64,000 nucleotides of DNA from a virus, in IMG/VR virus record IMGVR_UViG_3300046514_000672, positions 1-64,000 of that record. One strand, written 5' to 3'. Below, one piece after another: positions 19,785 through 39,822 of this stretch (positions are counted from its first letter, which is position 1; the number at the start of each line of letters is the position of its first letter). The notes under the pieces are model-generated. The model saw only the letters and a list, made by a program, of their open reading frames with translations, was not told the DNA's origin and ran no database searches. The translations under genes were made by a program, and so were the position numbers.

Positions 19785-21113
19785 ATGTATACCCAAACAA
19801 CCCTGGGACAGCTCTCAACACAGTTATTCCTACGCCTGAGCGCCCAGGGTTTTTGGACGATGGACGAGATACAGGGGTATGTAGTGGAGGCGTTACGGAC
19901 ATGGCAGGCGTTCTCCCAGTCGTATACGATCAAGGCCACAATTCCTACTACTCCCAACGTTTTCTTCTACGACTTATTCAAATTGATCCCTTCCCTCACT
20001 CCGACAATCACAGATCGGAATTTAATCGTTGATATCCAACGGTCCCTCCAGGAACCTGTCTCCCCCATCTCATGGATAGGATCTGAACAATTCACCTTCC
20101 AACAGGTGATTAATGCTATTCAGAGATCTAGGAATAAGTTCCTCCTGGAGACTGGTATGGTTAACACGGTTGTGGAGATCCCAGGCCCAACTCCCTCCTC
20201 TGGCACTCTCGAACTTTCCCATAACACCATCGATGTTAGACATGCTATGTGGAAGGATCGGGAGGGGAACTATTCCCTCCTCTGGGAAACCGATCCCTAC
20301 TCCCTCACCGCAGGAAATACTAAATGGTACAACACTCCCCAGGCAGTTCCCACGGACTATTCAGTGTTCGTGCAGCAGCCATTGGTGCTTCAGCTCGCTC
20401 CGCCCCCTAATGATGTGGGTAGGGTGAATCTCATCACGGTAGAGTCTCTACCTGACCTGGACCCTGCTAATGTCGCTACTGTCCTAGGCATCCCTGATGA
20501 TTATTGCTGGATCATTAAGTTCGGTGCCCTCGCTGACCTCTTCTATCAGGACGGCCCTGGACAGGACGAAGGCCGCGCACAATACTGTCAGTCCCGATAT
20601 GAGGATGGAATTAAACTATCCCGAACATCGAATTTCATTCGTTTCGGGTATCAGACAGGCGTGCCCAGTTTCATAGACTCTATTTCCGAACTCGACACCA
20701 CCAACCCTACCTGGATGAGCAAACTTCCAGGGACTCCTGACAGCATCGGCCTCGCGGGTAATATCGCCCTCACCACTCCTATCCCAGATGACAAACCCCA
20801 TTCCATGTCCTTCGACATCACGCCGAATTTCCCTATCGGCGGGCCGTTGAATTACGTCCAGGTAGGCAGGGAAGTACTCGATGTGATCGTTGATTACGCG
20901 CAACACCTTGCATATGTCAAGGAGGGGAGCTTTGAGCTAAAACAATCCCAGGGCCTCTACAAAAACCTCGTCATGCTCGCCGCCACACAGAACGACCGAT
21001 TCCGCGCTGAGTCCATTAACTTCGACGTTCTCTCCGACCGGTCAGAACGAGAGAAGAAGGAAAATCCCAGGAGACGTTCAGATACACAGTTAAAGGAGCT
21101 GGATTATGAATAA
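19785..21113 (+). CDS. Connector/tail-neck protein, 442 aa
   Basis: The N terminus (TLGQLSTQLFLRLSAQGFWT, then MDEIQGYVVEALRTWQAF) resembles that of the preceding adaptor and of tail-neck proteins that begin with a helical connector domain. A long strand-rich middle follows, with a C-terminal amphipathic helix and a charged tail (RREKK-type region near the end). An AAGGAAGGA sequence is about 15 bases before the start. The protein probably extends the portal-adaptor ring. The stop overlaps the next gene by 8 bases. Confidence 0.6.
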   Translation: MYTQTTLGQLSTQLFLRLSAQGFWTMDEIQGYVVEALRTWQAFSQSYTIKATIPTTPNVFFYDLFKLIPSLTPTITDRNLIVDIQRSLQEPVSPISWIGSEQFTFQQVINAIQRSRNKFLLETGMVNTVVEIPGPTPSSGTLELSHNTIDVRHAMWKDREGNYSLLWETDPYSLTAGNTKWYNTPQAVPTDYSVFVQQPLVLQLAPPPNDVGRVNLITVESLPDLDPANVATVLGIPDDYCWIIKFGALADLFYQDGPGQDEGRAQYCQSRYEDGIKLSRTSNFIRFGYQTGVPSFIDSISELDTTNPTWMSKLPGTPDSIGLAGNIALTTPIPDDKPHSMSFDITPNFPIGGPLNYVQVGREVLDVIVDYAQHLAYVKEGSFELKQSQGLYKNLVMLAATQNDRFRAESINFDVLSDRSEREKKENPRRRSDTQLKELDYE

Positions 21114-23049
21114 ATTTCTACGTATCATGGCCATGTTAGTTATCACGTCCGGGGTAATGTCCGCCAAGCAAAAGCTCATGGGATACTGCGAAGCGGGGAA
21201 CAATCCCGTTATCACCAACACCATTGTCTCCACTACAGTAGTGCAGAAATCCTTCCCGTCCTGTACGGTGACTGTATATATTACCGGTACTCTCACCCTA
21301 GCTTCTATCTTCGCTGACAACCTTGGCACCACCCTCTCCAACCCCTTCACGGCAAATAACGACGGTTCCTGGGGATTCTATGCCTCTAATGGAATCTATG
21401 ATGTGAATTTCTCCAACGGTGGTATCCCCACCCCTTTCACTCTCGGCGGGAATCTCATTAACGATCCATCTGTGTTCTACAATGACGTTACGTTATTTGG
21501 CGCTTTCTGTGACGGTATGACAGATGACGCACCCGCAATCAACGCGGCTCTGGCTAATGGTGGGACTGTGCTCCTTCCACAGAAACAAACCTGTAGACTG
21601 GCATCAACTATCACCATCCCTGCCGCATATACCGAACTCCAATGTAACGGATCTACTCTTCTCTACACCGGCACGGGAGATCTCTTAGATGTGTCTGCGT
21701 TTGGCAACACTCCTCCCTACGTCACAGGAAAGGTGGAGAAATGTCTTTTTGACGCAACGGGTAATGCCAATGGCAACCTCATCGGTGTGCATCAGTTCTC
21801 GCGGTTAGGATTTGTGTATGAGGACGTGCGGTTCTCAAACTTCTCCACCACCAACTCAGTAGGTATGGAGTGGGAGAATATCGCGCCGTCTGGTACTTCT
21901 CCAGGGTTTACCGAGCAATCTGCTATCAGAAAAGCAGATTTCTTCAATTGTAACAAGGGCCTGAAATATATCAACACCGCTGGGTTTAATAGTTTCTTCT
22001 ATAACTATATCACCGACGTACATTTCACCCTCCTCGACGGCCAGATCGGGCTCTCTATCGAAGGTAACGGCACCTCCAATAACCTCCTAGTCTTCGGCGG
22101 AACATATGACCTTCGCGTGAACATCTCCGCTAATGTCTCTGCACGTGGAGTATCTGTAACAGGCGGAGCGGTAGTTGAGAGACAGAATTACTTCGGTGTG
22201 GGAGGGGAAAAGACATCTGGATCGGCAACAGATTACTCTCTATATGTAGATGCCGCTTCGTCAGTATATACCACCGGCCATGTATCCATTGATAACACAG
22301 GAGTGTTTTATGGCGGAGCTGAATCCTCCCTCGTTGTCCTACCACCCGTCAACCCCACCACCGGTTCCGTTCATTTCGAAAACGGAGGTGGTATCTCCCC
22401 GCCCAGGCATTGTAAATATGACCTTGGCTATCCCTCCATCACCCCTAACGCCGCTAGTGATGCGAAGTTCTGGCTGGCGAACTTCGGCGGCACGGAGAAT
22501 GATTGTAATTTTCAGATTCTAAAGCGTGCGACGGATAATACCAATCCCGATGTGGATATTCAAGGTACCGGCCCTGCGCCGGTTAATATCTTCTTCACTG
22601 ACGCCCTCTCAGGTAACATCGGCATCGGTCCTGGATGGTCGGTGGCTTCCGCGCCAGTGTATAATCTCGATCTTGGAAAGGTTGGCACCACCTTCCGCAC
22701 TCCTAATACTTTCATGTCAGGAACCTCCAAAGGCTTCCATCAACAATACGTCTCTCCCAATCCTGATGAGTCTTTTTCTGTCCTTATCGGTGCCGGTGCC
22801 TCCACAGCGACCTTTAACTTCACCACAGCTTGGAACTCTCTCCCCATGTGCATCGCTACGCCCAACACAACCCTGGTGTCATACGGAGCTAACCCCATCA
22901 TCGCAGGCTGGGCAATCGCTCCCTCTGTCTCCTCCGTCACCCTCAACCAGTGGGCTATGAACCTCACACCCGGTGGGTCCTACGGCACCTCAACCACCCT
23001 CACCTTCCCAGTGACATACTTCATCCATTGTAAAGGAAACCCCAACTAA
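21106..23049 (+). CDS. Tailspike/adhesin-like beta-helix protein with signal peptide
   Basis: The 647-aa protein starts with a typical signal peptide: Asn-Lys start, hydrophobic core FLRIMAMLVITSGV and a short SA site near residue 20. Residues about 25-115 form a module shared with the 849-aa protein (CEAGN..., then SFPSCTVTVY and NPFTANNDGSWGFYA). Residues about 130-450 (NDVTLFGAFCDGMTDDAPAI onward) match the entry to a right-handed parallel beta-helix of pectate-lyase type, as in tailspikes. It ends in a strand-rich domain. A virion spike is the usual role; the signal peptide and paired cysteines instead suggest export. Both are inference; the beta-helix is well supported. Confidence 0.75.
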   Translation: MNKFLRIMAMLVITSGVMSAKQKLMGYCEAGNNPVITNTIVSTTVVQKSFPSCTVTVYITGTLTLASIFADNLGTTLSNPFTANNDGSWGFYASNGIYDVNFSNGGIPTPFTLGGNLINDPSVFYNDVTLFGAFCDGMTDDAPAINAALANGGTVLLPQKQTCRLASTITIPAAYTELQCNGSTLLYTGTGDLLDVSAFGNTPPYVTGKVEKCLFDATGNANGNLIGVHQFSRLGFVYEDVRFSNFSTTNSVGMEWENIAPSGTSPGFTEQSAIRKADFFNCNKGLKYINTAGFNSFFYNYITDVHFTLLDGQIGLSIEGNGTSNNLLVFGGTYDLRVNISANVSARGVSVTGGAVVERQNYFGVGGEKTSGSATDYSLYVDAASSVYTTGHVSIDNTGVFYGGAESSLVVLPPVNPTTGSVHFENGGGISPPRHCKYDLGYPSITPNAASDAKFWLANFGGTENDCNFQILKRATDNTNPDVDIQGTGPAPVNIFFTDALSGNIGIGPGWSVASAPVYNLDLGKVGTTFRTPNTFMSGTSKGFHQQYVSPNPDESFSVLIGAGASTATFNFTTAWNSLPMCIATPNTTLVSYGANPIIAGWAIAPSVSSVTLNQWAMNLTPGGSYGTSTTLTFPVTYFIHCKGNPN

Positions 23050-23050
23050 T

Positions 23051-26000
23051 ATGTCTCTGCAATCCGATCTCTCCGCTCTGTTAGGACCTAACAAATCTAT
23101 CGGCCAAGAATTCAGGCGCGTCTCGAAACGTGCGATATCTTTAGGAGTTGAGCTTAACTCTCCTGTGGATCTCGTGCCACCTGGGAAGTATCCTCTTTTA
23201 CAAAATGTTAGATCTTATCAGGGGGGAAGGATCGAGGCACGACAGGGATTGGTGAGAGTAGCGCAGGCTCCTATCGCAGACACTAACGTTCACTCCATCG
23301 CTAGAATGAATGATTATGTATTTCAGAACTTCGTGAGGTTCCTTGGTGCGGGGACAAATCTCTACTCAGGGGTGAACAGCTTTACCCAGATCGATACTGG
23401 ATACTCGGGCGACCCCCTTTCCGTCGTCCCCTATCGTCCTGATCAGTCCCCTAGGGTCTGGGCATATATCGCCAACGCCAATAAAATGCGTAAGGTAGAT
23501 ACGGACAACACCGTATATAACGTAGGTATTGCTCCTCCTATTGATATCCCCTCTGCCGAACTTGCCCCGCCTAATTACCTACCTGCGAATGTGTTTGATC
23601 TAGGGGCCGGGAACTGGGGAGCAACGGGTGCGACAAATCCAGTGTTGGGAAATAGATTAACAGGTGTTACCATTGGCACCATTCTCTATATCAATGGCGT
23701 ATCTGGCTGGGCACTAATCGCCCCTTCTGGAGGTTTCTCTGACGCTATTTCCACAGGAATGAGATTGATCATCAACGGAGGAGCTGGAAATCAGGAGTCT
23801 GCTACTGTCGAGGACACAAAGAAGGTATTCGTCCCCAACGCCTCACCTGCATTAACCGTAACGGGGATTATCTACGACAACCCTATAGCCGCCACTGGTC
23901 TTGCAACCATTACCCTTAGTCAACAATTAAATGGCATTGAGAGGAACTCTCTTATTCAAATTGAAAGTGAATGGGTGAGGGTGATATCTGTCACTCCTGC
24001 TCCAACTGGTATCTACAACGCCAGTTTTCGTGTCTCTACTACCATCTCACATGGTGTGGGATCGGGGATCACTCTTCCACCCCAAGGCAACATCTATATC
24101 TACCTTGCCAACACTCACGTTGCCGGTGAGCCACTAACCGCCACCATGCAGACATCTACCATCGCAGGTGGGTCCACAGGAGCCACTGGGAGCTTCTACA
24201 CCAATGCCGCAGCGGCGTTCCCGTATAATTTTGGTGCTATCGGTGGTGTGCCGATCCAACCTGATGATTTTATCCATGTTGGTGTATATGTGGACCATCC
24301 AGAGTGGTTAGTGGAGGGGAAATTAGTATTAGATATCGATCCTAATACCACGGTCACACATACTGCGTTAGATGGCAACCAGAATGCCTATTGGAAATCA
24401 TTTCGTCCTAATGACCTCCAGCCAATTATTCTCTCTGCTGAGACCACTGATTCTGCAAGGACCGCCGCTATTCAACTCCAGGTACAGAATGAATCTGACG
24501 TGGCGTTTGCGACTAACCTAGAGGGAGGTATCGCGCCGGAACTACAATCTGGATCATCCCAACAGGTATTGGGACAACAGGTGTGGACGGATTTTATCTG
24601 GAAAGTGTCTGACCTGTTCAGGGTGGGTAGTAATCAATTCGTGGATCTCTCCACGCTTCGTGCGATACAGTTCCGTATCACTGTCGCCGCAGGACAGACA
24701 ATTAATGTCTCAGTGCATAACTTATGGGTGGGCGGTGGATATGGACCGGATAACTGGCCTAACCACTCTCCATTTATCTATCGGGTGAGATATAGATCCT
24801 CCGCCACCGGCGCTAAGTCTCTTCCCGGCCCAGCAATGAGAACTGGGATTGATTCCCGGCGTCAGGCGATCACCGTTACCTGCGCCCAGTCCCTTGATCC
24901 TCAGGTAGACAAAATTGACATTGAGAGGTTGGGCGGAACGAATCCAGACTGGCATTATATCGCCACTATCGCCAATTCCTCCACGCCTACATATATCGAC
25001 GCCCAAGCCAGTGGGGCTATTATCACCAATCCTCCATTGGATATCGATGTGTCTCAGCCGTTTGCCATTTCAGACTTGCCCAAAACCTCTACCGTTACTG
25101 TCTCAGGTACAGCGGTGTTTCGCACCGCAGGGAGTGTTTTTAACACCGCCTGGGAGAAAGGGACGGAGGTGATCGTCAATGGCATTTCCACTACCCTCTA
25201 TGCATCCCCTTACTCCACTGCCCTTCTTCACGTTGCTGACACCATCCCATCAGGCACTGGATTAATCCTGGAGATCAACGAACCCATTCTTGCTGGTCAG
25301 CCTCTCCCGGTTATGTGGGGACCGTTCTATGAGTGCCTGTTTGGTGTAGGGAATCCCCTCGACGCAGGGAGTGTATATTTCACTAACCCTACTAATCCAG
25401 ATGGTGCGTCGGTGAAGAATCGTATAGAGGTAACCTCTCCATCAGAGAAAATGCAAAACGGCTGTCTCTATGACGGCAGGAGTTATGCATTTTCAGACCA
25501 GAGATTCTTCCAAGTAACCCCCTCTAGTTCCGCTACGGTTAAGTTCGACTTCACAGAGATCCCCAATGGTAAGGGACTGTTCGCCAAATGGGCATTCTCA
25601 GTAGGTAAGAAGATCCACTTCCTAGCATCAGATGGGATATATGAGACCACCGGCGGGGAACCGATTTGTATCTCTGACGATATCCGGCCACTATTCCCAC
25701 AGGGCGATTCCCCTGGATTTGCAGTTAATAGTATAAATCCTATAGACATGACTATGACAGATAACCTACGTCTGGCGGAGCACCAAGGATATGTATATTT
25801 TGATTATATAGACACTAGTGGATTTTTAAAAACACTTGTTTATGTCGAAGACGACAAAGCATGGTATCCAGATAGTTATTTTTCTGGAGACATACTAAAG
25901 GGTGTCCTTAGTCATTATTCTGAAACAGGAGAATTTAAAGGAGTAGAATATAGAACTCTACTTATTGGAGGAAACAACAATCTTCTTTTCACTCCAGGCG

Positions 26001-26992
26001 GAACTTTTGATGATAACGAAGAGATTCTATGTACCGCCGCTACCCCCGCAGAGAATTTAGACGACCCTAGGGCCAAAAAACAATTTGGAGATTTGGCATT
26101 TGATTTAGATCCTGATAATACAGACATCACAGTGATGCCAAGAATTAGCAATCTTTCTACCTCTCTACCGTCTGTAGTTTATAATTATGCCGGTCGCGGA
26201 ATTTCCGCTCCGCTTGATTTATCCTCTGGTGCGGGAGTGTTCGCTAGGAATATAGGAGTGATATTTAGTTGGTCTACTAGAACGGGTAATCCTAAGATCT
26301 ACGGCTACGACATTTCGTATCTCCTTCGCCCAGAAGACACAGCGATGAGAGCAACGGACTGGTCGGATGATGGATATCCAGGGGACAAATTCTTCCAGGG
26401 ATTTTTGCTCACATGTGACACTAAAGGACTAGACAAGGTGATTAAGATCCAAGGGGATCAGGGGGACGTAGAGACGTTTACCATTAATCATAATGGTATT
26501 GAGACAAAACCGTATGTGTTCACCCCGCCGAAGATCTTCTCCTTGGTAAGGATAATTTCTACTGATACAGTACTCTGGGATTATTACAAGACCAAATGGG
26601 TATGGGAGCCGTCGCCGAACTTAGTGACCTTGTATCAAACCCAAGGCACTACCCATGACATCCCTGGGTATCAATTCCTAAAAGACGGCTACATCGCGCA
26701 TATGTCTACGGCAGATGTCATCCTTACCATTAACGTGGACGGGACGCTGTTCAGTTACAAAATCCCAGCCTCAGGCGGTGTGTATGTTAAGAACTACCTA
26801 GTGTTCGCCATCAATCCCTCCACCGGGCAGGCGCTGAAGGGCAAGTTATTTGCATACGGTGTGTCCTCAACCGCACCTTTCCGCCTCTTTGAGAAAGACT
26901 GCGAGGTACGGGTCCATTCCTGGATCGGCGGGGATTACGTGGTAAAGCAGCCATTTGGGGATATCCACAGGTTGGCCGGGGCTAGAATATAG
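23051..26992 (+). CDS. Large tail hub/nozzle-like protein, 1313 aa
   Basis: This very long protein is strand-rich with no signal peptide and no coiled coil. The N terminus (FRRVSKRAISLGVELNSPVD, then PPGKYPLLQNVRSYQGGRIEARQGL) resembles the first strands of podovirus nozzle and gp10-type proteins, which begin with NVR...G.l..R.G. Repeated patterns such as RAIQFRIT and YWKSFRPND are of beta-sandwich type, and a late region (RLAEHQGYVYFDYIDTSG) resembles blades of a beta-propeller. It follows the connector genes, so a tail tube/nozzle role is likely. It starts one base after the spike-like gene. Confidence 0.6.
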   Translation: MSLQSDLSALLGPNKSIGQEFRRVSKRAISLGVELNSPVDLVPPGKYPLLQNVRSYQGGRIEARQGLVRVAQAPIADTNVHSIARMNDYVFQNFVRFLGAGTNLYSGVNSFTQIDTGYSGDPLSVVPYRPDQSPRVWAYIANANKMRKVDTDNTVYNVGIAPPIDIPSAELAPPNYLPANVFDLGAGNWGATGATNPVLGNRLTGVTIGTILYINGVSGWALIAPSGGFSDAISTGMRLIINGGAGNQESATVEDTKKVFVPNASPALTVTGIIYDNPIAATGLATITLSQQLNGIERNSLIQIESEWVRVISVTPAPTGIYNASFRVSTTISHGVGSGITLPPQGNIYIYLANTHVAGEPLTATMQTSTIAGGSTGATGSFYTNAAAAFPYNFGAIGGVPIQPDDFIHVGVYVDHPEWLVEGKLVLDIDPNTTVTHTALDGNQNAYWKSFRPNDLQPIILSAETTDSARTAAIQLQVQNESDVAFATNLEGGIAPELQSGSSQQVLGQQVWTDFIWKVSDLFRVGSNQFVDLSTLRAIQFRITVAAGQTINVSVHNLWVGGGYGPDNWPNHSPFIYRVRYRSSATGAKSLPGPAMRTGIDSRRQAITVTCAQSLDPQVDKIDIERLGGTNPDWHYIATIANSSTPTYIDAQASGAIITNPPLDIDVSQPFAISDLPKTSTVTVSGTAVFRTAGSVFNTAWEKGTEVIVNGISTTLYASPYSTALLHVADTIPSGTGLILEINEPILAGQPLPVMWGPFYECLFGVGNPLDAGSVYFTNPTNPDGASVKNRIEVTSPSEKMQNGCLYDGRSYAFSDQRFFQVTPSSSATVKFDFTEIPNGKGLFAKWAFSVGKKIHFLASDGIYETTGGEPICISDDIRPLFPQGDSPGFAVNSINPIDMTMTDNLRLAEHQGYVYFDYIDTSGFLKTLVYVEDDKAWYPDSYFSGDILKGVLSHYSETGEFKGVEYRTLLIGGNNNLLFTPGGTFDDNEEILCTAATPAENLDDPRAKKQFGDLAFDLDPDNTDITVMPRISNLSTSLPSVVYNYAGRGISAPLDLSSGAGVFARNIGVIFSWSTRTGNPKIYGYDISYLLRPEDTAMRATDWSDDGYPGDKFFQGFLLTCDTKGLDKVIKIQGDQGDVETFTINHNGIETKPYVFTPPKIFSLVRIISTDTVLWDYYKTKWVWEPSPNLVTLYQTQGTTHDIPGYQFLKDGYIAHMSTADVILTINVDGTLFSYKIPASGGVYVKNYLVFAINPSTGQALKGKLFAYGVSSTAPFRLFEKDCEVRVHSWIGGDYVVKQPFGDIHRLAGARI

Positions 26993-27020
26993 TTGATAGA
27001 ATAGAGTTATAGGAGATCAA

Positions 27021-27377
27021 ATGGCGATTAACAGACCAAGGCGATCATATTACGGGGTGCAAATAACCTTGACAAGTGCGGATACTAACTATGAGATTTA
27101 CACTCTGGTTGAGGCAATTGTCACCGTGGCCACTAACCCTTCCGACGCGCCGGGTGCGTGTAGGGAGTTTAACATCCAGTCCGATCCTGGGAATGACGGG
27201 AGTAATCCGATACTGGTTGGGGATTCTGAACTATCTGCAACACGATATGGATATTCTCTCTCTGCTGGGGATTCCAGAGTGTACCGGAGTGATATCAATA
27301 ACGTTCAGGTAGCTGGGAAATATGTACGGTCCCATGCGTCTGGGCAGAAGTTGAATGTGGAGATCGATCTGGGATAA
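27021..27377 (+). CDS. Hypothetical tail-associated protein, 118 aa
   Basis: GGAGATCAA precedes the start. The product is a small strand-rich protein without signal peptide, with YYGVQITLTSADTNYEIYTL and a Ser/Gly/Asp-rich turn region, compatible with a beta-sandwich tail or decoration protein. It lies between the hub-like gene and the first exported fibre-type gene, with a one-base gap to the next ATG. No family recognised. Confidence 0.6.
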   Translation: MAINRPRRSYYGVQITLTSADTNYEIYTLVEAIVTVATNPSDAPGACREFNIQSDPGNDGSNPILVGDSELSATRYGYSLSAGDSRVYRSDINNVQVAGKYVRSHASGQKLNVEIDLG

Positions 27378-27378
27378 T

Positions 27379-28002
27379 ATGAAGAAACTATTCTATCCAT
27401 TATCGTTTCTTTTCGTACTATTACTCTCTGTATACTTCACACCGCTACCTGTGTATTCACAGGGCGGAGGTGGAATTAGTATTTCTGTGGCGAGGAAATT
27501 CGTTATCTACACTACCCTCCCAGCTACATGCGCGGCGGGACAGGTAGCTTATCAGATTTCTGACACCTCCTTTTACGGTTGTACCTCTACTAACACATGG
27601 CATCTCTTGGGCACCTCTGGCGGATCAGGAACGGTAACCAGTATTGTATTTTCTGCTCCTCTCACGGGCGGTACTGTCACCACAACCGGAACTGTTGGGT
27701 GCGCCACCTGTACGATTACCATAGCTTCAGGAACTAAGGCCCTGGCTACTTCCCTTATCGCTTCTGGGGCATGTTCTGCTGCCCAGACAGCCACAGCTAC
27801 CGGTACTTTAACCACCGATTCTATCGCAGCATCTTTCAACGCTGACCCCACGGGTGTAACAGGATACACTCCCTCCACTTCTGGAGGGCTCTATATTGTC
27901 GCGTACCCCACTGCGGATCTTGCCAATTTCAAAGTCTGCAACAATACTTCCGCAGGAATTACTCCCGGCGCAATTACCCTTAATTTCCGCGTTACTCGAT
28001 AA
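27379..28002 (+). CDS. Exported fibre-like protein, 207 aa
   Basis: The ATG at 27379 gives a long signal peptide (Lys-Lys start, core LSFLFVLLLSVYF, likely cleavage after YSQ). The mature part has Cys pairs (CAAGQ...YGC; CATC; GAC...VC). Its last about 95 residues are nearly the same as the end of the 849-aa protein downstream (SGTKALATS... to ...NFRVTR), so this terminal module was duplicated. Probably a cell-surface or virion-tip protein. A fibre role is inferred from its neighbours. Confidence 0.7.
   Translation: MKKLFYPLSFLFVLLLSVYFTPLPVYSQGGGGISISVARKFVIYTTLPATCAAGQVAYQISDTSFYGCTSTNTWHLLGTSGGSGTVTSIVFSAPLTGGTVTTTGTVGCATCTITIASGTKALATSLIASGACSAAQTATATGTLTTDSIAASFNADPTGVTGYTPSTSGGLYIVAYPTADLANFKVCNNTSAGITPGAITLNFRVTR
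27715..28002 (+). repeat. Duplicated fibre C-terminal module, copy 1
   Basis: This stretch encodes SGTKALATS, then QTATATGTLTTD, FNADPTG, GYTPSTSGGLYI and VCNNT. It aligns along its whole length with bases 30264-30561 of the downstream fibre-like gene. The relation is clear at protein level but less so at base level, so the duplication is not very recent. Confidence 0.75.
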
Positions 28003-28011
28003 GGAGAAGAT

Positions 28012-30561
28012 ATGAAATTACTCTCAAAGATACTCATCCTTTGCTCCTTGGGAGTAATGTCATATGGGAGGGGATTACTCTCAGGGAATTGTGAACAGGG
28101 AGGATGGAGAGTTCAAACACAAGGAATGCAATCCTCGACCCTCGTTCAGCGTAGTTTCCCTGCATGTACGGTGACGGTATATGTGGTAGGGTCTGGAACC
28201 CCTGCTACTATTTATTCCTCCAGCTCCGGTTCGCCCCATCTCAACCCATTCACTGCCGGTCCTGATGGGAGTTATCTCTTCTACGCAGATGATAATAATT
28301 ATGAGATTCATTTCTCAGGTGCGAATATCATCACAGCATTTATTCGCTACGGCACGGTATCCTCCGGTAGCGGAAGCCTTGCCAACGTCTCCACCACACC
28401 CACTGCTAATTTCATTCCCCAGGCATATAATACAGCTCTAATAGATATTGGATGGCTACCTAGAACCGGCACTGGATCTAAGGTCCTCACCGCTACCGGC
28501 ACCCTCACCCCTGACACAGGCGCGTGTTTTGATTCTAATAACAACGCTGTGTCCTGCCCTAATGGATTGTTTGACGCCACGGTTCTCTACGTCTCTGCCA
28601 CCGGTAATGACGCTAACCCTGGCACATCCTGGGCGTTTCCTAAACGCACCGTGGCCGCAGCGGTCAATGCTCTCCCTCTCTCAGTAGGCGGCGTGGCATC
28701 ACACACAGGCACGGTGAACATCGGTCCTGGAACATTCGTGGAAACCGCCACGCCTATCGAGTTCAACGCCGACATCCACCTTGTTTGTGCGGCGTCTGGA
28801 GACAACGGCGAAGGGGTGAATAACGCTACGGTGATTCAGTTAGGCTCTGGCCGTAACACCTCCCTCTTCTCATACACCTCTGCATACTCTATGGCAAACG
28901 GCTACGCACATTTTCTCCAGGCAGACCATTGTATGTTTGATGGGAATAAAGGGAGTAATTCTTCAGCTCCTGCGCTCATCAAGATCTGGAACGGTGGATA
29001 TCAAAATAGCTTTCATGAGGTAGGGTTCCAGAACGCACATGGCGTGGCGTTGCAGATCGATAACCAAGCGGTGAACTTCTCATGCTTTGTATGCACCTTC
29101 GCAGGAAATGATGGAGGTGCGTTTTATCTCAATGACCTCGTAGGCGCTAACGTCGTCTCCTTCTATGACACACAGATCGATAACTCAGGGGTGAATCCTA
29201 TCCTCATCACCCAGGCACTGACCGACACCGGTGGATCAAATATCGCCACGTTTATCAATACTAAATTCGAAGCCACAACCGGCGTCGTCAACCACGCGCA
29301 CGTCATCGACTTTACTCCTCCTTCCTCCAGCGGCAATCCATTCTCCATTAATATCATGGGACTCACGGCAGAGAACACGATTGGTTCCGGCACCTTCGCC
29401 ATCTTCCAAGAGAACCAAGGGGGGTACGGAGCGAATTGGAATATTCAAGGAGTGAATGTTGGTGGGTATACTGGGGCGTTTAAGAATAATAAGAACGGTG
29501 CGATTAGTAATAACGGGGAAATTAAACACCTCATCGATTCCGACACAGCCAATCTCTATGAGTCCTCTCCTGATATTCAGGTATCGGGCGGCGCGGGGAT
29601 TTATTCCGGTCTCGGTACGCCTGTTGGTAATGTCGCGGCATGCATAGGATCGGTGTATATGCGCTTGAATGGCGGCGTGAGTACTACCCTCTATGTCAAA
29701 CAATCGGGAATATGTACGGACAACACTGGCTGGGCACCGGCAGGAGGCGGAGGTGGCGGATCTGTTGACGCTACGATTATTCAAGAGGCAACATTAGTGG
29801 CCGTTGCTTCTGGATCTGGCACGGCCTATGCAGGCAACGCCACTACTTGTATCTCTAGCTATCTGGCTGGACAGGTATTTCTATGGAAACCGGATACCAC
29901 TAATACTTCCACCACTCCTTCGTTAAATATCTGTACTCAGGGGCCGAAGACAATTGTTCATAGGTCAGATAGTTCAGCCTTGGCAAATAATGAATTAGAT
30001 ACCGGCCAATACTGCACATCTCTCTATGACGGCACCAATATGCTCACGTCTGGGTGTTTCATGGGTCCTGGAACCACTACCTATACCTATAACAACTCCC
30101 TCGCCACACCTGCCAGTGGGCATGGGAACTTGGGATTCTACGGTACCGGGAAGGTTATCCAAGGTGTGTCTGATGACGGAACTAATAGCTATTCTGTACA
30201 GGATAATACCTGCACCGGACAGGTCGTGCAAAAGATTGTCGCAGGCTCTATTACTTGTGGATCGGTAGGTTTAGAAATTGCAACAGGATCAAAAGCTCTT
30301 GCCACTGGTGCCATTTCTTCTGGAACCTGTACCTCGGCCCAAACCGCTACGGCCACCGGCACATTAACTACTGATACTATCCTAGCGGCTTTCAACGCTG
30401 ACCCTACTGGAACTACCGGATATCTCCCCTCCACATCAGGTGGACTTTATATTATTGCCTATCCCACTGCCGACACGGTTAACTTTAAAGTTTGTAATAA
30501 TACAATTGGAAGTATAACCCCTGGTGCCGCTATCACTATTAATTGGAGAACAATACGATGA
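28012..30561 (+). CDS. Exported beta-helix fibre/adhesin-like protein, 849 aa
   Basis: Signal peptide at the N terminus (core SKILILCSLGVMSYG). Residues about 25-110 are the module also found in the 647-aa protein (GNCEQGGW, SFPACTVTVYVVGSG, NPFTAGPDGSYLFYA). The middle, from VLYVSATGNDANPGTSW, matches the opening of parallel beta-helix proteins (YVsatGnDaNpGTsWa), followed by many turns. A Gly-rich linker leads to the duplicated terminal module. AGGAGAA precedes the start. Such proteins usually bind or degrade surface glycans. Export instead of direct tail assembly is suggested by the signal peptide and cysteines but not proven. Confidence 0.75.
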   Translation: MKLLSKILILCSLGVMSYGRGLLSGNCEQGGWRVQTQGMQSSTLVQRSFPACTVTVYVVGSGTPATIYSSSSGSPHLNPFTAGPDGSYLFYADDNNYEIHFSGANIITAFIRYGTVSSGSGSLANVSTTPTANFIPQAYNTALIDIGWLPRTGTGSKVLTATGTLTPDTGACFDSNNNAVSCPNGLFDATVLYVSATGNDANPGTSWAFPKRTVAAAVNALPLSVGGVASHTGTVNIGPGTFVETATPIEFNADIHLVCAASGDNGEGVNNATVIQLGSGRNTSLFSYTSAYSMANGYAHFLQADHCMFDGNKGSNSSAPALIKIWNGGYQNSFHEVGFQNAHGVALQIDNQAVNFSCFVCTFAGNDGGAFYLNDLVGANVVSFYDTQIDNSGVNPILITQALTDTGGSNIATFINTKFEATTGVVNHAHVIDFTPPSSSGNPFSINIMGLTAENTIGSGTFAIFQENQGGYGANWNIQGVNVGGYTGAFKNNKNGAISNNGEIKHLIDSDTANLYESSPDIQVSGGAGIYSGLGTPVGNVAACIGSVYMRLNGGVSTTLYVKQSGICTDNTGWAPAGGGGGGSVDATIIQEATLVAVASGSGTAYAGNATTCISSYLAGQVFLWKPDTTNTSTTPSLNICTQGPKTIVHRSDSSALANNELDTGQYCTSLYDGTNMLTSGCFMGPGTTTYTYNNSLATPASGHGNLGFYGTGKVIQGVSDDGTNSYSVQDNTCTGQVVQKIVAGSITCGSVGLEIATGSKALATGAISSGTCTSAQTATATGTLTTDTILAAFNADPTGTTGYLPSTSGGLYIIAYPTADTVNFKVCNNTIGSITPGAAITINWRTIR
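30264..30561 (+). repeat. Duplicated fibre C-terminal module, copy 2
   Basis: Second copy of the module at 27715-28002: TGSKALATG, TATATGTLTTDT, FNADPTGT, GYLPSTSGGLYI, FKVCNNT and an Arg end. It forms the last about 98 residues of the 849-aa protein and is probably a trimerisation or tip-binding domain. Confidence 0.75.
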
Positions 30562-31289
30562 AAAAACTAATTCTATTATTCCTATTAGCCATACAAGGAA
30601 TCTTTGCGACATGTACCACGCCTTGTAAGGATACCCAGTTCTTTGCCACCAATGGGGCTACAGGAACTACGCCTGCTATGAACAACACAGGTGCGACGGC
30701 ACTTATTGTCCTTGGCAGTTGCTTTAGCCAAGACTGCTCAGGCATAACCATCACCAGTTCTCCTGGTAACACTTTCACATGTTTAACGTCATTGTCTGGA
30801 GCAACAAGTTCTGCAATTTTATGTTATGCACTTACTCCGATAGTGAGTAGTTCTCAAACAGTATCTTACAGCGGCTGCTCTGTTGGGTGTGGAGTGTTTG
30901 CAATGTCCTTAACCGGAACAGGAGCATTGGATGGCAGTCCTGGGTTTGTTTCTCATCTCGATTCCGGCGGCACCGTTAGCAGTTTTCAGCCTGGATCTAT
31001 TTCCACGTCACAATCCAACAGCGTAGTCATATCTGGTATGGGAGGATATTGTACTAGTTCTTTTGGTATCATTAGCATCGATTCAAGCTATACCATTGGT
31101 GTTAGTCAATGTCTGGCCACCGCGATGGACGGAGGCATTGCCTACAAGGTGATTTCTGCCGCTGGAGCAACTAATCCTACATGGAGTATAACCAGCGCCA
31201 ACTGGCAAAACGCAGCAGGATATAACATTGCATTTTTAGCCGCTGCCACTAGTACTGCATCCCAACCTAATATATTAGGGATTTTATAA
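30558..31289 (+). CDS. Exported Cys-rich fibre-associated protein, 243 aa
   Basis: The ATG at 30558 overlaps the previous stop (ATGA) and gives a short signal peptide (core LILLFLLAIQGIFA, followed by TCTTPC). The mature protein has several Cys pairs (CTTPC, CFSQDC, CSVGCG), is Ser/Thr/Gly-rich and predicted strand-rich. Its pattern (TGATALIVLGSCFS onward) resembles the beta-sandwich units found in the next, 2123-aa protein (STGSNEVITS type). Likely a surface or tail-tip accessory. One-base overlap with the next start. Confidence 0.65.
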   Translation: MKKLILLFLLAIQGIFATCTTPCKDTQFFATNGATGTTPAMNNTGATALIVLGSCFSQDCSGITITSSPGNTFTCLTSLSGATSSAILCYALTPIVSSSQTVSYSGCSVGCGVFAMSLTGTGALDGSPGFVSHLDSGGTVSSFQPGSISTSQSNSVVISGMGGYCTSSFGIISIDSSYTIGVSQCLATAMDGGIAYKVISAAGATNPTWSITSANWQNAAGYNIAFLAAATSTASQPNILGIL

Positions 31290-34200
31290 TGAAGAATTTA
31301 TTTCTTTTATTCTTTCTGTGCCTTGGTAATTTATTCTCCCAAGTAACCGTTTCGTTCTCTTATCCCATGAACGGTGCGACAATTGGTGGAGGCGGGATAC
31401 AACTTTCCGGACCGGTTGCCTCTTCCGCAGCCGCGATTACTAGTGTAACCATTTCCATTAATGGAGGAGCCTTTGGAGGATTTGCTACATTATTCGGTTC
31501 TCCTCCTAATACATGGCTAATGTCATTACAGGGTTCGGCCATGACAGCCGGGGCTACTACGTTACAACTTAAAGCCACCGATGCCATGTCAAATACCGGT
31601 TTGTCATCTATTATTAACGTCACGGTTATCCATAGCAATCCTCAATGTTCCCACACCACCGCTCCTGGAAGTTCATCTATCTTCTGCGAAAAGGCGGTGA
31701 CAAATATTAGCACATCCACCAATACCGCAAGATCGGTTACGCTTACCGGTGGGCTAACCGCAGGACAATTAATATTCTGCCAAGCCGAGGCATCTGTCCC
31801 AGCTTCACCGGCCACACAATTAACCAGTAGCGTTACCGCTGGAGCTACGCTTATTCACGTAGTTAGTTCTGCTGGATTCCCGGCTACTCCATTTTTCGCC
31901 ACGTTGAGTCCTATTGGTGGCCTAGGCACAGGTACACCTCAAGTTCCTACCCCCGAAGATACAGTAACCGTTACTAACGTGTCTGGATTGAACTGGACGG
32001 TTACGGCAGTTCCCCAAAACCACGCTAGCGGAGAAATCGTAGGTAACTGGAGTGTGGTGCAAGGACAAAGTAATTATCCCTGGAAATCCACATATTTAAC
32101 CGATAGCTTAGGCATTCCCTTCACGTTCTATAACGAAGTAGGAACTCGGGCAACTGATAACGATGTAGAGCAGATGGGAACCTATTATGCCTTCGTCCCT
32201 GCCTCAACAGGATCTAATGAGGTAATTACCAGCCAGAATCCCAACGGTTCCGGACAGGTAAATCTTCTTCAGTGCGCGCTTTTCTCTGGAGTCAATTCTG
32301 TCGGTAATGGTGCGTACCTTATGGGCTGGGCAGGCCAGAACGATGGATCAACCGTTTTACCTGGGCCAGCTTATGTAAACCCATTTATTGTGACTCCTGG
32401 AGATCTAATCGTTACGTCTGTTTTTGCGGCTCCTATTGTGCCTCTTGGTACTGCCCAACTAGCAATTGAAGATACTTCTAAGCCCTACGGCCAAATCAAT
32501 TACTTTGTCGCCACTTCCAGTCCAGTACAACCTGAGACATCTGCTAATGTGGATGGATTTTTTGAAGTATCTATAGCCTTCCATCCAACTGGATTTAGTA
32601 GTGGAGGCGTGCAGGCATTTATCACAGAACCATACATTAGTCCTAGGCCGGGTGAGAAAACATCTCAATTGGCGTTAGTAGCCGCGCAGGTAACAACCAG
32701 CACTGGGACTATTACTAATGTAGATGTGTCATTTGATAACGGGCCGTATAATGCTACTTTTGGTCCTATGGCATTGGAAGGCGGGTCCAGTTGGAATGCA
32801 CAACTAGACGCCAGGATAGTGTCCGCAGGTTCCCACACATTACAGGTCCGTGCGACGGATTCCTTTGGTAATATAGGATACTCCTCTCCCGCGACACCGA
32901 TTATTATTGAACATATTCCATTTGTGTGTGCCCACACACAGGTTGGTCCCCCAGGAACAGGGTATTTCTGTGAACAATATGCAGCGGCTGATGGAGTTAA
33001 TCCACAAGCTATTACCTTTCCAGCAGTGGCCGGGGTGGGATTACGTGCAGGGCAGACGATTATCCTACAGACATCGATGGGCAACGCGCAGGTATTCCAG
33101 ACCACTAATAACGGCGCGATTGATAACGTACAGACATCATTTCTCCTCAATGGCGCATGTTCTAGCTTCCCGGCCACACCATTTGACGTGAAAGTAAATG
33201 AACACGCAGGATATGGTGCATATGGCCGTGTGGAGAAAATGACAGTTCATGCCTGCACAGGGTCTACTGCTTCTAGTGTTACCAGAGGCGTGCCTGGGAA
33301 TGATTGTGTGATTCCTAGTGGGGAACTGAGTGCATGTTCCATCGCCATTGCACATGATAATGGGGCCTGGGTGAATCGCTGGGGAGCACAGACACCGGAC
33401 ACAACCAATATCACCTCCACTCATGGATTCACATGGACGGCGGTTAAGCGAGTATCATCTGGGCCATTTGCTGACCTAGACGACGCCAATGGTGCTATAT
33501 GGTATACGGTAGTGCCGTCAAACATCTCTACAGATGAGGTGATTACATTTACTGATGCCATTTCTAATTTCTCTATCGTATTGGGTGTGGTATACACAGG
33601 ACTAGGCGCATTGGAACCTGGGGCGGTATACACCACTAATCTGGGCGGGTTTGGTTCTGGATCTGCCAGCACCGGTCCATATTTCTCCCAACCAGGAGAT
33701 ATAAATATCGCCCTAATTGGCGGAGCACCAGAGAGTGTCATCCCATCGAATCCAATTACTAACGTGCGTGCAGGAGATACTGTTAGACCATATTCAATCT
33801 TTGCTGATCAATACTCTGTGTCGTCTATCGCTAATATCGGAACTTATATGGGATCTGAGGGTGCGTCAGTGATAGGTATGGCATTTCAACCAGCGGCCCC
33901 CTCTACATTTGGTAGATCGATTGTGCTTAGTTCTCAAACGGCATTTAACAATTCCATCCCTGGTATTCCCTCTAATGGTGTTTGTACAATGGAAATTTCC
34001 ATGCATGATTGGGGGAATCAGGTTGTCTCTGAACATCCAATACAGAATAATATTTGTGATATCAATACATATTGGTTTGCTGTATCAGGCGGCAATCCTC
34101 AGATGTTATTAACTCCTCTACACAATACAGGTGCAGGTGACTGTCAAGTGAACTTCACTGGACATAATCTAGTAACCATTCGTTGGCAAAGGATACCGGC

Positions 34201-37200
34201 CACGGGCAGTACTGGAACAATCATCTGCCAAGCTACGGACGAAACAGGGAATACCTTTGTTAATATGTCTACCAATTATACGGGGATAACTGGACCAGTT
34301 ACGACAAATGGATTTACCGTTGGCGGAACGACTACTCCTATCTCATATGCTTATGCGAGAGTGTATGGTACTAATTTCTCGGCTACCGCCACTCCCCCTA
34401 CCACAGCACAAGATCAAACAGGAGCAGTGTTTCAATGGAAATTCGACCTAGGGAATAATGTAGGAAGTTTAAATGATTCCACCGCCGGGAATACTCATCC
34501 AGCCACACTCTCATCGGGTTCCCCAACCTATGTTAATACGGCCTATCAGAATCTAATCAAGGCCCTACCTAGAACCCTCAACGCACCTGCGTATACAAAA
34601 TGGTTGCCGTTTAAGGTGAACGCTACCAACACCCTCGATGGGTCCACTTCATATACTCAGGCTAACGCCTCCCCAAATGTCTCTGTTACCTCATGGACTA
34701 ATGTTAGCGGTCCAGTTACTCCTATCATTGTCTCTCCGTCTGCATTAGTTACTAATGTTACTGGATTAACCCAACGAGGTGGATATACATATAATCTCCA
34801 TGTGGTTGACACCTCCTCCAATAGTGCTGACGCACAATTGTTGGTAGGGGCTGTGGATTATGATGCCAATGGAGTGTTGGTACAGACGGCAGATGAGAAA
34901 AAGATCTATGGAGATCAGATAGTATGGGGGAAAAATCCCTGGGGATATGCTGATGAGAGGAACTGCACTGCGGTTAATCTCCAGATTAATGGAACAAATT
35001 GTAATGGAGATCAAATCCAAGCGTCGGGGAATGCATATTTTTCTACCACTACTTGGCTAACTCCAGCAACAGGAACGGTAAGTTATCCATTTGCCGGGTA
35101 TGGTCCGTCTCCAGGGCAAGCGTGTTTGGCGGGAGGGGTAACCAAGGCAACATTAAATGGGTCGATTACATCTTCGGCTACGTCCATCTTGATCCATCAT
35201 TCAGAATGCCTAGACCTAACCTCCTTTCCGACGTGGATTTTAATTGGCAATACTATAGGAAACATAAGTGGAGTTCCACAACAAGAGCAGGTATGTATTT
35301 CTTCTTCTGGCGGAGTGTTCACCGGGGATGCTACACTAGCTGTCTGTTACGACGGTCGTGGAATGGCTGGAGCAAATCTATTAAATGCCCAGCCTTTAGG
35401 ATCTGCTCAGATGTGGGCGGACACTACAATAGTGGGGCAATTCAAGATCACCGGTAGTGGGACTAAATTCTATTCCGATCCTGCCAGACCCATATGCCCC
35501 GCTGGAGTTCCTGGGCCTCCTGGACCAGTAGCTTATTACATAGGTCAAGCGGCATTTACTGCTGGTTCCTCCACCGCAACCTTATCAGGATTTGGAGCGG
35601 CATGGACAACTCTTAACGGAGTGGTAGCAGGTGGATACATCCGCGCCAATGCCACTCATGCATCCGGTACACCATTTGCTTTCTGGGCAAAGATTGTTTC
35701 CGTCACAGACCCAACTCATTTAGTCATGGATAGACCTGCACCTACTGGGATTGATGCAGGGCCTTTTAACTATGCCATTACCGCGACACAATTCCTCTCC
35801 CTCGACTGGATACAGAACAGCCACGCATATCGGTCACTTTGGCAGGGAAGTGGATGTGCGTCTGAAACGGCAGCGTTCGGAGTGCCGTCACATGATGTTA
35901 CAAGTTTAGACTCTACTGTTCAGTCTGGGGTTAATATCAGCTACAAGAATGCCCTAGGTGCGATTAGTTCTCAAGGTCCTAATTTCTATGCTACCGGTCG
36001 TGCGGAAAGACAACTTGAACATAGAAGTGGATACACACCGGCGCTAACCGCCGCGAATCAGATTGATGATAATTATGTCAGAGATCCTGAGGTATCTGGG
36101 ATTGGTGGAGGGAGTCCATTATTAAATGGTGGAGGGATTATTGGAAGCATCATAGATAAAATATTTAACGGCTCTACGCCATTGGATTGGTTAGATGTTA
36201 CGCCATTTGCCTCACAAGGAGTGGCGGAGGCGGCGAAGAATTGCAACACTGCTGATCCCAGAGATCAGGGATATCCACAAGGATGGTTGGGATTAGTGGC
36301 GCTGAAGGACCCAAATTTTACGCGCCAAATGACATGGACCACCGGCCTACAAGCCTGGGCAACTAGGGACCAAACGTGTAGGAGAAATGCAACTGATGGA
36401 TATGCAGGGGTTCAGGTGAATTCCTGGGCGGGCTCTAGTATAGGTGGTATACCCGGAGCGCCATTAACCCTCACCAACGGCAGTAAACTTGCTTCCCCAA
36501 CCACGGGGACATTCTCTCCGGGAATCTGTGCAGGGGTGGATGACGGAACTGGAACTATTCATGTTATTGTCGGGTCCACAATCGCAACAGTGGTCACGGG
36601 GAATGTCGCGGCAGGTGGGTTTAGAATAACCATCACCGACACCTCAGTGTCTCCGCCATTAGTGGTAACAAGGGAATACTCAGGCTCGGGCGGCATGGGA
36701 AGTACCATTACTCTCGCTGGGGCCTGGACGGGCCTCACCACTGGAGATTATACGTTTATGGTTGAGGATGGAAGTCTACAGGGATATATGACTTCTATTG
36801 GTAACTCTAACCTAGACTGGCCGGATGTTTCTGTGGCTACTGGATTAATTAATAATCGCACCCTTCAACATTTTTACGCATGTCAGTACAACTCCCCTAC
36901 CCAGATCACACTTAATCGCTCCTGGGACCAACTAGCAGGAACTACCACTAATAACTATATGGTTAGTTATGTGGTAAGTGGGTTTGAGGTGCAGCCGTTT
37001 ATGTTGGGGGGAATTAAAGCATCTGGCACTAGATGGGCAGGACAGAACTCCGACCCTACAGTTTCTTCTGCTTATTCCATTATGAACGGGCAATTAGGGA
37101 CCTGGATTGCGAACTTCGGTTCTGATCTTAACTCTCCAGGGACTTTAGGAATATATTATAACCGGGTTAGTGGAGACTGTGAAGTGCCGGGAGTTCCTAA

Positions 37201-37660
37201 CCCCTCTCCCACATTTGATAGTATTCATGGAACCTCCCTCACCCAACCTTCATGTGGATTTATGGGCCTTACCACAACAACCGGAGGACAATATACCGCT
37301 AGAGTAAATACCGCAGAAGCCATCACCGGATACGAAGCATATTACGACGCACAGTGTGCGTTAGGAATATCTCAATGCAATACAGCAAGAGCATTCGTCG
37401 ATAAGTATTACGGCGCAGTCTATGGCGATTGTTCGATGACACAGGGAGGAGGAAGTACCTTTTACTGTGACGCGCATTTTGTCAATACCCAGAATGAGTT
37501 ATCTAATGCCTTCCTAGGCGGGATCAAATGGACCGGGTTCTTCTTCGGCATGGGAAATTCCGCGAGGTGGCCAGCACATAGATTAAATGCGGGAATACCT
37601 ACATCCCCTAAGGTACAGTTCTTCGGCGGAGTGTATGATTTAGGTGGGGTACATAACTAA
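31289..37660 (+). CDS. Giant exported multidomain adhesin-like protein, 2123 aa
   Basis: It starts with a signal peptide (core LFLLFFLCLGNLFS). Two Ig-like modules are visible, at about residues 18-115 (TVSFSYPMNGATIGGG) and 445-535 (ITEPYISPRPGEKTSQLAL); each is followed by a Cys-paired CxHT...FCE segment (about 120-137 and 546-569) and a beta-sandwich unit. Concanavalin/LamG-like stretches occur near 870-1065. A short collagen-like GVPGPPGPV lies near 1405. The last 700 residues are unassigned and Gly/Tyr/Trp-rich. It is the largest gene of the window. It may be a fibre or an exported adhesin. Confidence 0.65.
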   Translation: MKNLFLLFFLCLGNLFSQVTVSFSYPMNGATIGGGGIQLSGPVASSAAAITSVTISINGGAFGGFATLFGSPPNTWLMSLQGSAMTAGATTLQLKATDAMSNTGLSSIINVTVIHSNPQCSHTTAPGSSSIFCEKAVTNISTSTNTARSVTLTGGLTAGQLIFCQAEASVPASPATQLTSSVTAGATLIHVVSSAGFPATPFFATLSPIGGLGTGTPQVPTPEDTVTVTNVSGLNWTVTAVPQNHASGEIVGNWSVVQGQSNYPWKSTYLTDSLGIPFTFYNEVGTRATDNDVEQMGTYYAFVPASTGSNEVITSQNPNGSGQVNLLQCALFSGVNSVGNGAYLMGWAGQNDGSTVLPGPAYVNPFIVTPGDLIVTSVFAAPIVPLGTAQLAIEDTSKPYGQINYFVATSSPVQPETSANVDGFFEVSIAFHPTGFSSGGVQAFITEPYISPRPGEKTSQLALVAAQVTTSTGTITNVDVSFDNGPYNATFGPMALEGGSSWNAQLDARIVSAGSHTLQVRATDSFGNIGYSSPATPIIIEHIPFVCAHTQVGPPGTGYFCEQYAAADGVNPQAITFPAVAGVGLRAGQTIILQTSMGNAQVFQTTNNGAIDNVQTSFLLNGACSSFPATPFDVKVNEHAGYGAYGRVEKMTVHACTGSTASSVTRGVPGNDCVIPSGELSACSIAIAHDNGAWVNRWGAQTPDTTNITSTHGFTWTAVKRVSSGPFADLDDANGAIWYTVVPSNISTDEVITFTDAISNFSIVLGVVYTGLGALEPGAVYTTNLGGFGSGSASTGPYFSQPGDINIALIGGAPESVIPSNPITNVRAGDTVRPYSIFADQYSVSSIANIGTYMGSEGASVIGMAFQPAAPSTFGRSIVLSSQTAFNNSIPGIPSNGVCTMEISMHDWGNQVVSEHPIQNNICDINTYWFAVSGGNPQMLLTPLHNTGAGDCQVNFTGHNLVTIRWQRIPATGSTGTIICQATDETGNTFVNMSTNYTGITGPVTTNGFTVGGTTTPISYAYARVYGTNFSATATPPTTAQDQTGAVFQWKFDLGNNVGSLNDSTAGNTHPATLSSGSPTYVNTAYQNLIKALPRTLNAPAYTKWLPFKVNATNTLDGSTSYTQANASPNVSVTSWTNVSGPVTPIIVSPSALVTNVTGLTQRGGYTYNLHVVDTSSNSADAQLLVGAVDYDANGVLVQTADEKKIYGDQIVWGKNPWGYADERNCTAVNLQINGTNCNGDQIQASGNAYFSTTTWLTPATGTVSYPFAGYGPSPGQACLAGGVTKATLNGSITSSATSILIHHSECLDLTSFPTWILIGNTIGNISGVPQQEQVCISSSGGVFTGDATLAVCYDGRGMAGANLLNAQPLGSAQMWADTTIVGQFKITGSGTKFYSDPARPICPAGVPGPPGPVAYYIGQAAFTAGSSTATLSGFGAAWTTLNGVVAGGYIRANATHASGTPFAFWAKIVSVTDPTHLVMDRPAPTGIDAGPFNYAITATQFLSLDWIQNSHAYRSLWQGSGCASETAAFGVPSHDVTSLDSTVQSGVNISYKNALGAISSQGPNFYATGRAERQLEHRSGYTPALTAANQIDDNYVRDPEVSGIGGGSPLLNGGGIIGSIIDKIFNGSTPLDWLDVTPFASQGVAEAAKNCNTADPRDQGYPQGWLGLVALKDPNFTRQMTWTTGLQAWATRDQTCRRNATDGYAGVQVNSWAGSSIGGIPGAPLTLTNGSKLASPTTGTFSPGICAGVDDGTGTIHVIVGSTIATVVTGNVAAGGFRITITDTSVSPPLVVTREYSGSGGMGSTITLAGAWTGLTTGDYTFMVEDGSLQGYMTSIGNSNLDWPDVSVATGLINNRTLQHFYACQYNSPTQITLNRSWDQLAGTTTNNYMVSYVVSGFEVQPFMLGGIKASGTRWAGQNSDPTVSSAYSIMNGQLGTWIANFGSDLNSPGTLGIYYNRVSGDCEVPGVPNPSPTFDSIHGTSLTQPSCGFMGLTTTTGGQYTARVNTAEAITGYEAYYDAQCALGISQCNTARAFVDKYYGAVYGDCSMTQGGGSTFYCDAHFVNTQNELSNAFLGGIKWTGFFFGMGNSARWPAHRLNAGIPTSPKVQFFGGVYDLGGVHN

Positions 37661-39117: not shown

Positions 39118-39822
39118 ATGAGTTTCTGGAGCACATTAAGCGGCGGGCTGGCCAGTTTGATTCCTGGAGTTGGGCCGTTTATTGGTCCGTTAGTGGGGGC
39201 GGGCGTGGCGGGATTGACTGGGGGATTGTTGGGGAAAGGGTCGGGGTCTGCTACTAGCGGGGGCGACACCACCGCTTCGCTTAATGGACAACTGGGGCAA
39301 GTGTTAGGTGGAGGTAGTCCTACTCCACAGGCACAACAGGCGAGTAAATATTATTCCACAATCCTCAACGGTAACAGAACCGCCACAGAGGCATTGCTTC
39401 GTCCGCAGGTGTCTACCGTGTTAGGTCAGTATGACAACGCTGCGAAGGCCGCTGCGGAACTGGGTCCTAGAGGTGGGGGACGGACTGAGACCCAGGCGGA
39501 GTTAGGGTCTAAGAAGGTTGGTGTGTATGAGAATGCCCTGGAAACGGCACAACCTAAGGCTGCGGAAGGGTTGACGACGCTGTCAGGACAGAATAATGGA
39601 TTGATATCTTCTCTGTTAGGGGCCAGGACCGGTAGTAATCAGTTAGGGTTTGAGCAGACACAGGAGACGAATAAGCAACTAGGCGGGTTGGGAAGTGGGA
39701 TTGGGAGTATATTAGTTAATTTACTCAAGGGTAAAGGTAAGGCTCCTGGCGGAGGCGGCGGTGGAGGCGGTATTTTAGGTGGTGGAGGTGGTGGATCGTT
39801 TGGTGACGCGGGAGATGAATAA
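39118..39822 (+). CDS. Gly-zipper internal virion/pore-like protein, 234 aa
   Basis: The N terminus (LASLIPGVGPFIGPLVGAG, then VAGLTGGLLGKG) is a glycine-zipper hydrophobic stretch that can insert in membranes, as in ejection proteins that are stored in the head and form a channel at infection. The middle is helical and polar; the end is a long poly-Gly tract (codons about 205-228). AGGATATC precedes the start. The stop overlaps the next start (TAATG). Role inferred from composition and neighbours. Confidence 0.6.
   Translation: MSFWSTLSGGLASLIPGVGPFIGPLVGAGVAGLTGGLLGKGSGSATSGGDTTASLNGQLGQVLGGGSPTPQAQQASKYYSTILNGNRTATEALLRPQVSTVLGQYDNAAKAAAELGPRGGGRTETQAELGSKKVGVYENALETAQPKAAEGLTTLSGQNNGLISSLLGARTGSNQLGFEQTQETNKQLGGLGSGIGSILVNLLKGKGKAPGGGGGGGGILGGGGGGSFGDAGDE

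Follow-up and report, generated by a model that had tools for sequence, protein, structure and literature searches.

Why would a tailed virus carry genes for proteins with signal peptides among its tail genes? The fibers and spikes of tailed phages are generally taken to reach their folded, assembled state in the reducing cytoplasm, and we know of no exported route. The question is raised by five proteins of 647, 207, 849, 243, and 2123 aa encoded by a soil phage represented by an IMG/VR record of 65,653 bases, of which a stretch of 64,000 bases (the window) was analyzed. The explanation that we favor, with some confidence, is that these proteins are tailspikes and fiber parts that are exported via the periplasm, become oxidized, and attach to virions at lysis. 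For the signal-peptide proteins, export and oxidation are well supported, as judged from sequence; attachment of the spikes to virions, its timing at lysis, and trimerization are steps that we infer.

Signal peptides within the late operon

The late genes of the window lie on the + strand and run from a P22-like portal gene through the major capsid gene (16139..17269; product 34% identical to Tunturi_1 gp8) and the tail genes to three large cysteine-free proteins (39118-43402). A tail protein gene (19785..21113) overlaps the start of the gene for the 647-aa protein (21106..23049), which is tailspike-like, with a signal peptide, a head-binding module, and a possibly pectate-lyase-like central part. 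Between the signal-peptide genes stands a 1313-aa structural protein without a signal (23051..26992), by eye related to Tunturi_1 gp31, for which the pattern scan gave no relatives. The 207-aa protein (27379..28002; start taken as the second ATG of the 27355 open reading frame) has a signal peptide, a cysteine-pair module (CAAGQV...FYGC), and a largely virus-specific C-terminal domain with two cysteines. It is followed by the tailspike-like 849-aa protein (28012..30561), made up of a signal peptide, a head-binding module, a long middle, and a C-terminal domain; by the 243-aa protein (30558..31289), a predicted exported protein with 10 cysteines past the cleavage site whose gene is translationally coupled to the 849-aa gene; and by the 2123-aa protein (31289..37660), likewise predicted to be exported, with 32 mature cysteines and a duplicated CxHT...FCE region. 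All of these genes are on the + strand, as is that of the 475-aa repeat fiber next to them (37660..39087), which offers the contrast drawn in the initial annotation in that it has no signal peptide and 1 cysteine in 475 aa. Because the five genes overlap or abut their neighbors, with translational overlap with tail genes on either side, we regard them as probable operon members and not as inserted morons. Promoter-like and terminator-like sites in the window were no more frequent than in shuffled sequence.

Signals were called with a home-made rule (charged n-region, hydrophobic core, small-x-small site; alternative starts allowed), which was loosened after a stricter first form missed Tunturi gp12 and gp13 and which passes 3.9% of 12,000 shuffled N termini. 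All five open reading frames were found where the initial annotation had placed them, and a Sec signal was called on every one; each has the n-h-c signal and cleavage site of a Sec-exported protein, and none has a lipobox. That of the 647-aa protein is MNKFLRIMAMLVITSGVMS (21106..21162, + strand; residues ~1-19). Across the structural block (16139-43402), the rule called a signal on these five and on 0 of 11 other genes. In three phages used as controls (lambda, P22, and Serratia MTx), no fiber, spike, or tip gene was called; the strong calls there were lambda Lom (a true signal), Rz, and a few genes that are small or not tail genes, and lambda Z and a single head gene of MTx were marginal false calls.

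Signal prediction on the tail genes of related phages, the check that the initial annotation had proposed, was made with the same rule and returned signal-peptide tail genes in Tunturi_1 and Tunturi_2, in Tunturi_4, and in about 100 IMG/VR loci collected by homology search. Tunturi_1 and Tunturi_2 are isolated podoviruses of Tunturiibacter, a member of the Acidobacteriota (PMC11924767). Their gp12, gp13, gp14, gp16, and gp17 have signals and 1.3 to 2.7% cysteine, the other structural genes being mostly below 1%; the main text of the paper that describes these phages makes no mention of signal peptides (PMC11924767). In the siphovirus Tunturi_4, signals and cysteines are found in gp113 and gp114, and the ~50% identity of gp114 to part of gp17 suggests that unrelated phages of Tunturiibacter exchange such exported modules. 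All three phages resemble the window in their signal peptides, in their cysteine richness, and in the place of these genes among the tail genes, and Tunturi gp12 shares with the 647- and 849-aa proteins the head-binding module and cysteine pair, but the central domains of gp12-gp17 and gp113-gp114 differ from those of the window proteins. No signal-peptide tail genes were found in Tunturi_3 or in the first 50 kb of Tunturi_5, the part read, so such genes do not seem to be required to infect this host genus. Closer relatives, as judged by capsid (60-68% identity), have signal-peptide genes at the same position wherever they are long enough. Known hosts are limited to those of Tunturi_1, Tunturi_2, and Tunturi_4 and of a few prophages, and we assume that the IMG/VR relatives probably infect mostly Acidobacteriota. 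In one close relative, three glycosyltransferase-like or TPR-like frames lie between the capsid and tail genes (L075:11540-16789); L077:9441 is similar.

Tailspike and fiber modules of the exported proteins

Structure prediction of the cysteine module, likewise proposed, was also carried out. The head-binding module of the 647-aa protein (about residues 22-125, with Cys28 and Cys53; 21169..21480, + strand) folds at pLDDT 90-98 and matches tailspike head-binding domains. When 37 modules were combined into a profile, it matched the Pan3 cyanophage tailspikes (E = 6e-5) as well as the head-binding domain of the Pam1 tailspike (E = 0.004), and Foldseek placed the same two at the top for the modeled 647 module (9vyg from Pan3 and 7eeq from Pam1; probability 1.00, E = 0.01-0.08, the PDB fold matches being at E above 0.01). 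Together, the profile and fold matches indicate that the 647- and 849-aa proteins carry a tailspike head-binding domain straight after a cleavable signal. The module is present in 36 viral loci and in tailspikes of proteobacterial phages (14 phage tailspike homologs), and the module proteins without a signal are for the most part proteobacterial phage proteins that are annotated as tailspikes or EPS depolymerases and start directly with the module.

With the head-binding tailspikes of Pan3 (9vyg/9vyh), Pam1 (7eeq), Serratia MTx, Escherichia ep3, and Pantoea Vid5, the 647- and 849-aa proteins share this module, a beta-rich body with a weak pectate-lyase signal, and a place in the late operon. 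They differ in having a cleavable signal before the module, a conserved cysteine pair, and a cysteine-rich mature protein, typically with an even count, and they depart from the usual cytoplasmic, signal-less condition of tailspikes, a trait that is not part of the definition. Matches that would point to a beta-helix body fall short of the cut-offs (PF12708, E = 0.033; PHROG EPS depolymerase, E = 0.0015), and the body model of the 647-aa protein is of low confidence.

Signal and cysteine pair go together. By raw scoring, the second cysteine of the module occurs in 34 of 35 signal-peptide proteins and in 1 of 18 without a signal (Fisher p = 1e-11), but both exceptions are miscalls: L091 has a signal-peptide start farther upstream, and L122 begins MELKTYFAQ, with no signal. 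After correction the cysteine is present in all 35 and in 0 of 18, an association to which phylogeny contributes, since most of the signal-less module proteins come from other host groups, and which was scored with scan patterns that favored cysteine. Within the same capsid lineage, the spike of L099 has lost its signal and both cysteines together (C to V and C to A), whereas the neighboring gene at 5718 retains a signal-peptide-like start and five cysteines.

The C-terminal domain common to the 849- and 207-aa proteins is a 97-aa beta-sandwich (30268..30558, + strand, in the 849-aa gene) with two cysteines that are invariant in 43 relatives. It was found in 55 IMG/VR contigs, where 42 of 56 proteins were called as having signal peptides and the others mostly look truncated or have a wrong start. 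There was no match in isolated phages or plasmids, one match in the GTDB collection (a Bryobacterales MAG), and matches in 4 of 396 acidobacterial genomes, two of the four weak; of these acidobacterial loci, one adjoins terminase, portal, and capsid genes and one a lambda-J-like gene (names assigned by eye). Its abundance in viruses and rarity in bacteria suggest that this is mainly a virus domain. The predicted fold, with pLDDT 90-97 for most of its length, is similar to the C-terminal domains of the KP32gp38 and phi297 depolymerases/tailspikes (probabilities 0.85-0.99, E above 0.05) and matches viral proteins in BFVD at E = 1e-4.

The gene right after that of a C-terminal-domain protein usually overlaps it and is almost always called exported. 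A PGPG motif occurs in the mature product of 31 of 43 signal-peptide genes in this position versus 3 of 238 other signal-peptide genes (p = 4e-28), mostly 5-7 residues past the cleavage site, and we suggest that the PGPG N terminus of the next fiber part, once freed by cleavage, may dock with the C-terminal domain. In the window the cassette gene order is present and the PGPG motif is absent. The two-gene cassette with Q..[FW]PGPG at the mature N terminus is seen at L002:10279, L003:3334, L007:10279, L022:10420, L026:1908, and L051:10333, among others. In the Bryobacterales MAG (L064:5029-11735), ordinary chromosomal genes flank those for a C-terminal-domain protein, a protein with PGPG, and an exported protein of 1424 aa, with no phage structural genes within the stretch read; this may be either a domesticated remnant or a mis-assembly. 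By eye, the 243- and 2123-aa proteins of the window resemble genes beside this cassette. Neither of the two has a head-binding domain or a relative among the collected loci at E = 1e-4, and the 2123-aa protein, which has weak PKD and Ig-like matches, has no relative among the INPHARED phages at E = 1e-3.

Our favored explanation would work as follows. The phage would make its tailspikes and fiber parts as Sec precursors, which late in infection would be exported and have their signals cut by signal peptidase, and their many cysteines would form disulfides in the periplasm. At lysis, the spikes would meet short-tailed particles assembled in the cytoplasm and dock on the tail via the head-binding domain behind the cleaved signal. 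Completed particles of P22 can acquire their tailspikes in vitro, which makes attachment at lysis plausible.

It is possible, if somewhat unlikely, that the five are exported, disulfide-bonded proteins that are not on virions at all. They would then be released in the course of infection or upon lysis, as soluble depolymerases, decoys for receptors, or surface adhesins. Such proteins would explain the signals, cleavage, and oxidation equally well, and a signal-peptide gene in a tail operon has a precedent in lambda lom (PMC12309495). A distant C-terminal-domain protein is also encoded next to an ABC permease on an acidobacterial chromosome, with no phage genes there (L073). Yet the tailspike head-binding domain, the only apparent use of which is docking to a tail, is retained by two of the five, and of 396 acidobacterial genomes only 2 strongly match the C-terminal domain, compared to 55 viral contigs that have it. 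Proteins that stay off the virion would also leave Tunturi_1 apparently without a large receptor-binding protein, as its late region has no signal-less fiber larger than the 124-aa gp33. These points, along with the position of the genes inside the late operon, make exported virion tailspikes the likelier reading. Thus, of the initial proposal that these are secreted adhesins, decoys, or surface modifiers, the export is well supported by the parity and cleavage evidence below, but as to destination we moderately favor exported tailspikes over secreted decoys. The signal-less fiber at 37660-39087 could be the real receptor-binding protein of the window.

Cysteine parity and signal cleavage

The cysteine motifs are as first described: C28/C53 in the 647-aa protein (CEAGN...SFPSC), C27/C52 in the 849-aa protein (CEQGG...SFPAC), and C120/C133 and C547/C561 in the 2123-aa protein. 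The mature 647-, 207-, 849-, 243-, and 2123-aa proteins contain 11, 6, 18, 10, and 32 cysteines (77 in 3,972 aa, 1.94%), compared to 14 in 4,878 aa (0.29%) for the 11 other structural genes of the block.

If a mature protein is exported and oxidized, an even number of cysteines is expected. We examined parity in cysteine-containing + strand genes of at least 150 aa from the window, the Tunturi phages, and relatives. The count was even in 157 of 187 mature signal-peptide proteins (84%, p = 3e-22) versus 231 of 503 proteins without a signal (46%); alternative starts were allowed, and these sequences are related and independent only as far as clustering makes them so. When sequences were clustered at 30% identity over half the length and a single protein was kept from each cluster, 80% were even (p = 5e-11), and adding the cysteines of the signal itself lowered this share to 57%. 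Stricter signal calls gave 139 of 165. Where the signal has an odd number of cysteines (n = 65), the mature part was even in 58 cases (p = 4e-11). Glutamine stands at +1 after the predicted site in 87 of 229 cases, against a 4.6% background, with an AxA site before it. Parity and this signature suggest that the signals are cut and that the mature cysteines are all bonded. Proteins of the exported tail set have Tat-type signals at L002:10279, L038:7270, and L097:13534 (RRLFLRG, RRRFLK, and RREFIK, respectively), and in L002 and L038 the Tat signal occupies the cassette position held elsewhere by a Sec signal, which suggests that export itself is under selection. The original suggestion that the five products are exported and oxidized thus gains strong support, at the level of sequence, from cysteine parity, the coupling of cysteines to signals, the cleavage-site signature, and the shared Tat position. 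The predicted exported tail-locus protein at L052:13260 has 72 cysteines in its mature part, an even number.

The same evidence weighs against the other suggestion made at the outset, that the hydrophobic N termini are reused as a virion anchor, and more broadly against uncleaved N termini that would hold these proteins in the virion or a membrane. Some structural proteins do have hydrophobic N termini, but here the cysteine arithmetic works only with the signal removed, and homologous tailspikes begin directly with the head-binding domain. Further, the signals diverge in sequence yet keep the n-h-c form and AxA-Q sites, and Tat signals are found at the same cassette position in L002 and L038. 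Given parity and glutamine at +1, we reject the virion anchor as very improbable. Least probable of all is an artifact of start choice, of the home-made predictor, or of cysteine-rich, host-like composition: shuffled N termini do pass at the rate given above and alternative starts were allowed, but parity played no part in the signal calls and still separates the groups, and the annotated Tunturi CDS starts yield identical calls.

Comparison with known systems

Lambda Lom and similar exported morons resemble the window genes in that a signal-peptide gene lies inside a tail gene block. Lom, however, is an outer-membrane beta-barrel whose mature part has no cysteine, whereas the window proteins are large, tailspike-like, several per genome, and translationally coupled to tail genes, and their confidently modeled parts are beta-sandwich modules, not those of a Lom-type beta-barrel or lipoprotein. 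Filamentous phage coat proteins are virion proteins that use Sec signals, but filamentous phages assemble in the membrane, while the window phage and its relatives are tailed, with cytoplasmic capsid assembly. A literature search of openly licensed papers turned up no description of tailed phages that export their tailspikes. Tailspikes as such are known; the group-wide exported, disulfide-bonded version predicted here from sequence appears undescribed in the papers searchable.

We consider the chances about even that in some tailed phages, at least of Acidobacteriota, assembly is divided between two compartments, with head and tail tube made in the cytoplasm, disulfide-bonded receptor-binding spikes in the periplasm, and the two joined at lysis; the widespread two-gene cassette may build a branched exported fiber. 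If true, tailed-phage assembly would gain a periplasmic route of maturation, used by a whole group of soil phages. One would then have to ask how, at lysis, spikes and particles come together, and the proteins would be a source of disulfide-stabilized enzymes and adhesins. Tunturi_1 and Tunturi_4 are isolated with a cultured host, which makes the proposal directly testable.

Outside the tail block, two further signal-peptide proteins are encoded on the minus strand at 48098-48580 (MKKLILLSMLALGIPSLPA...) and 49009-49383 (MKKLLLLPLLSVVIFA...), with no relatives among the collected loci at E = 1e-4. Also on that strand, 43882-47064 encodes a 1060-aa protein that combines DNA polymerase A with a uracil-DNA-glycosylase-superfamily domain.
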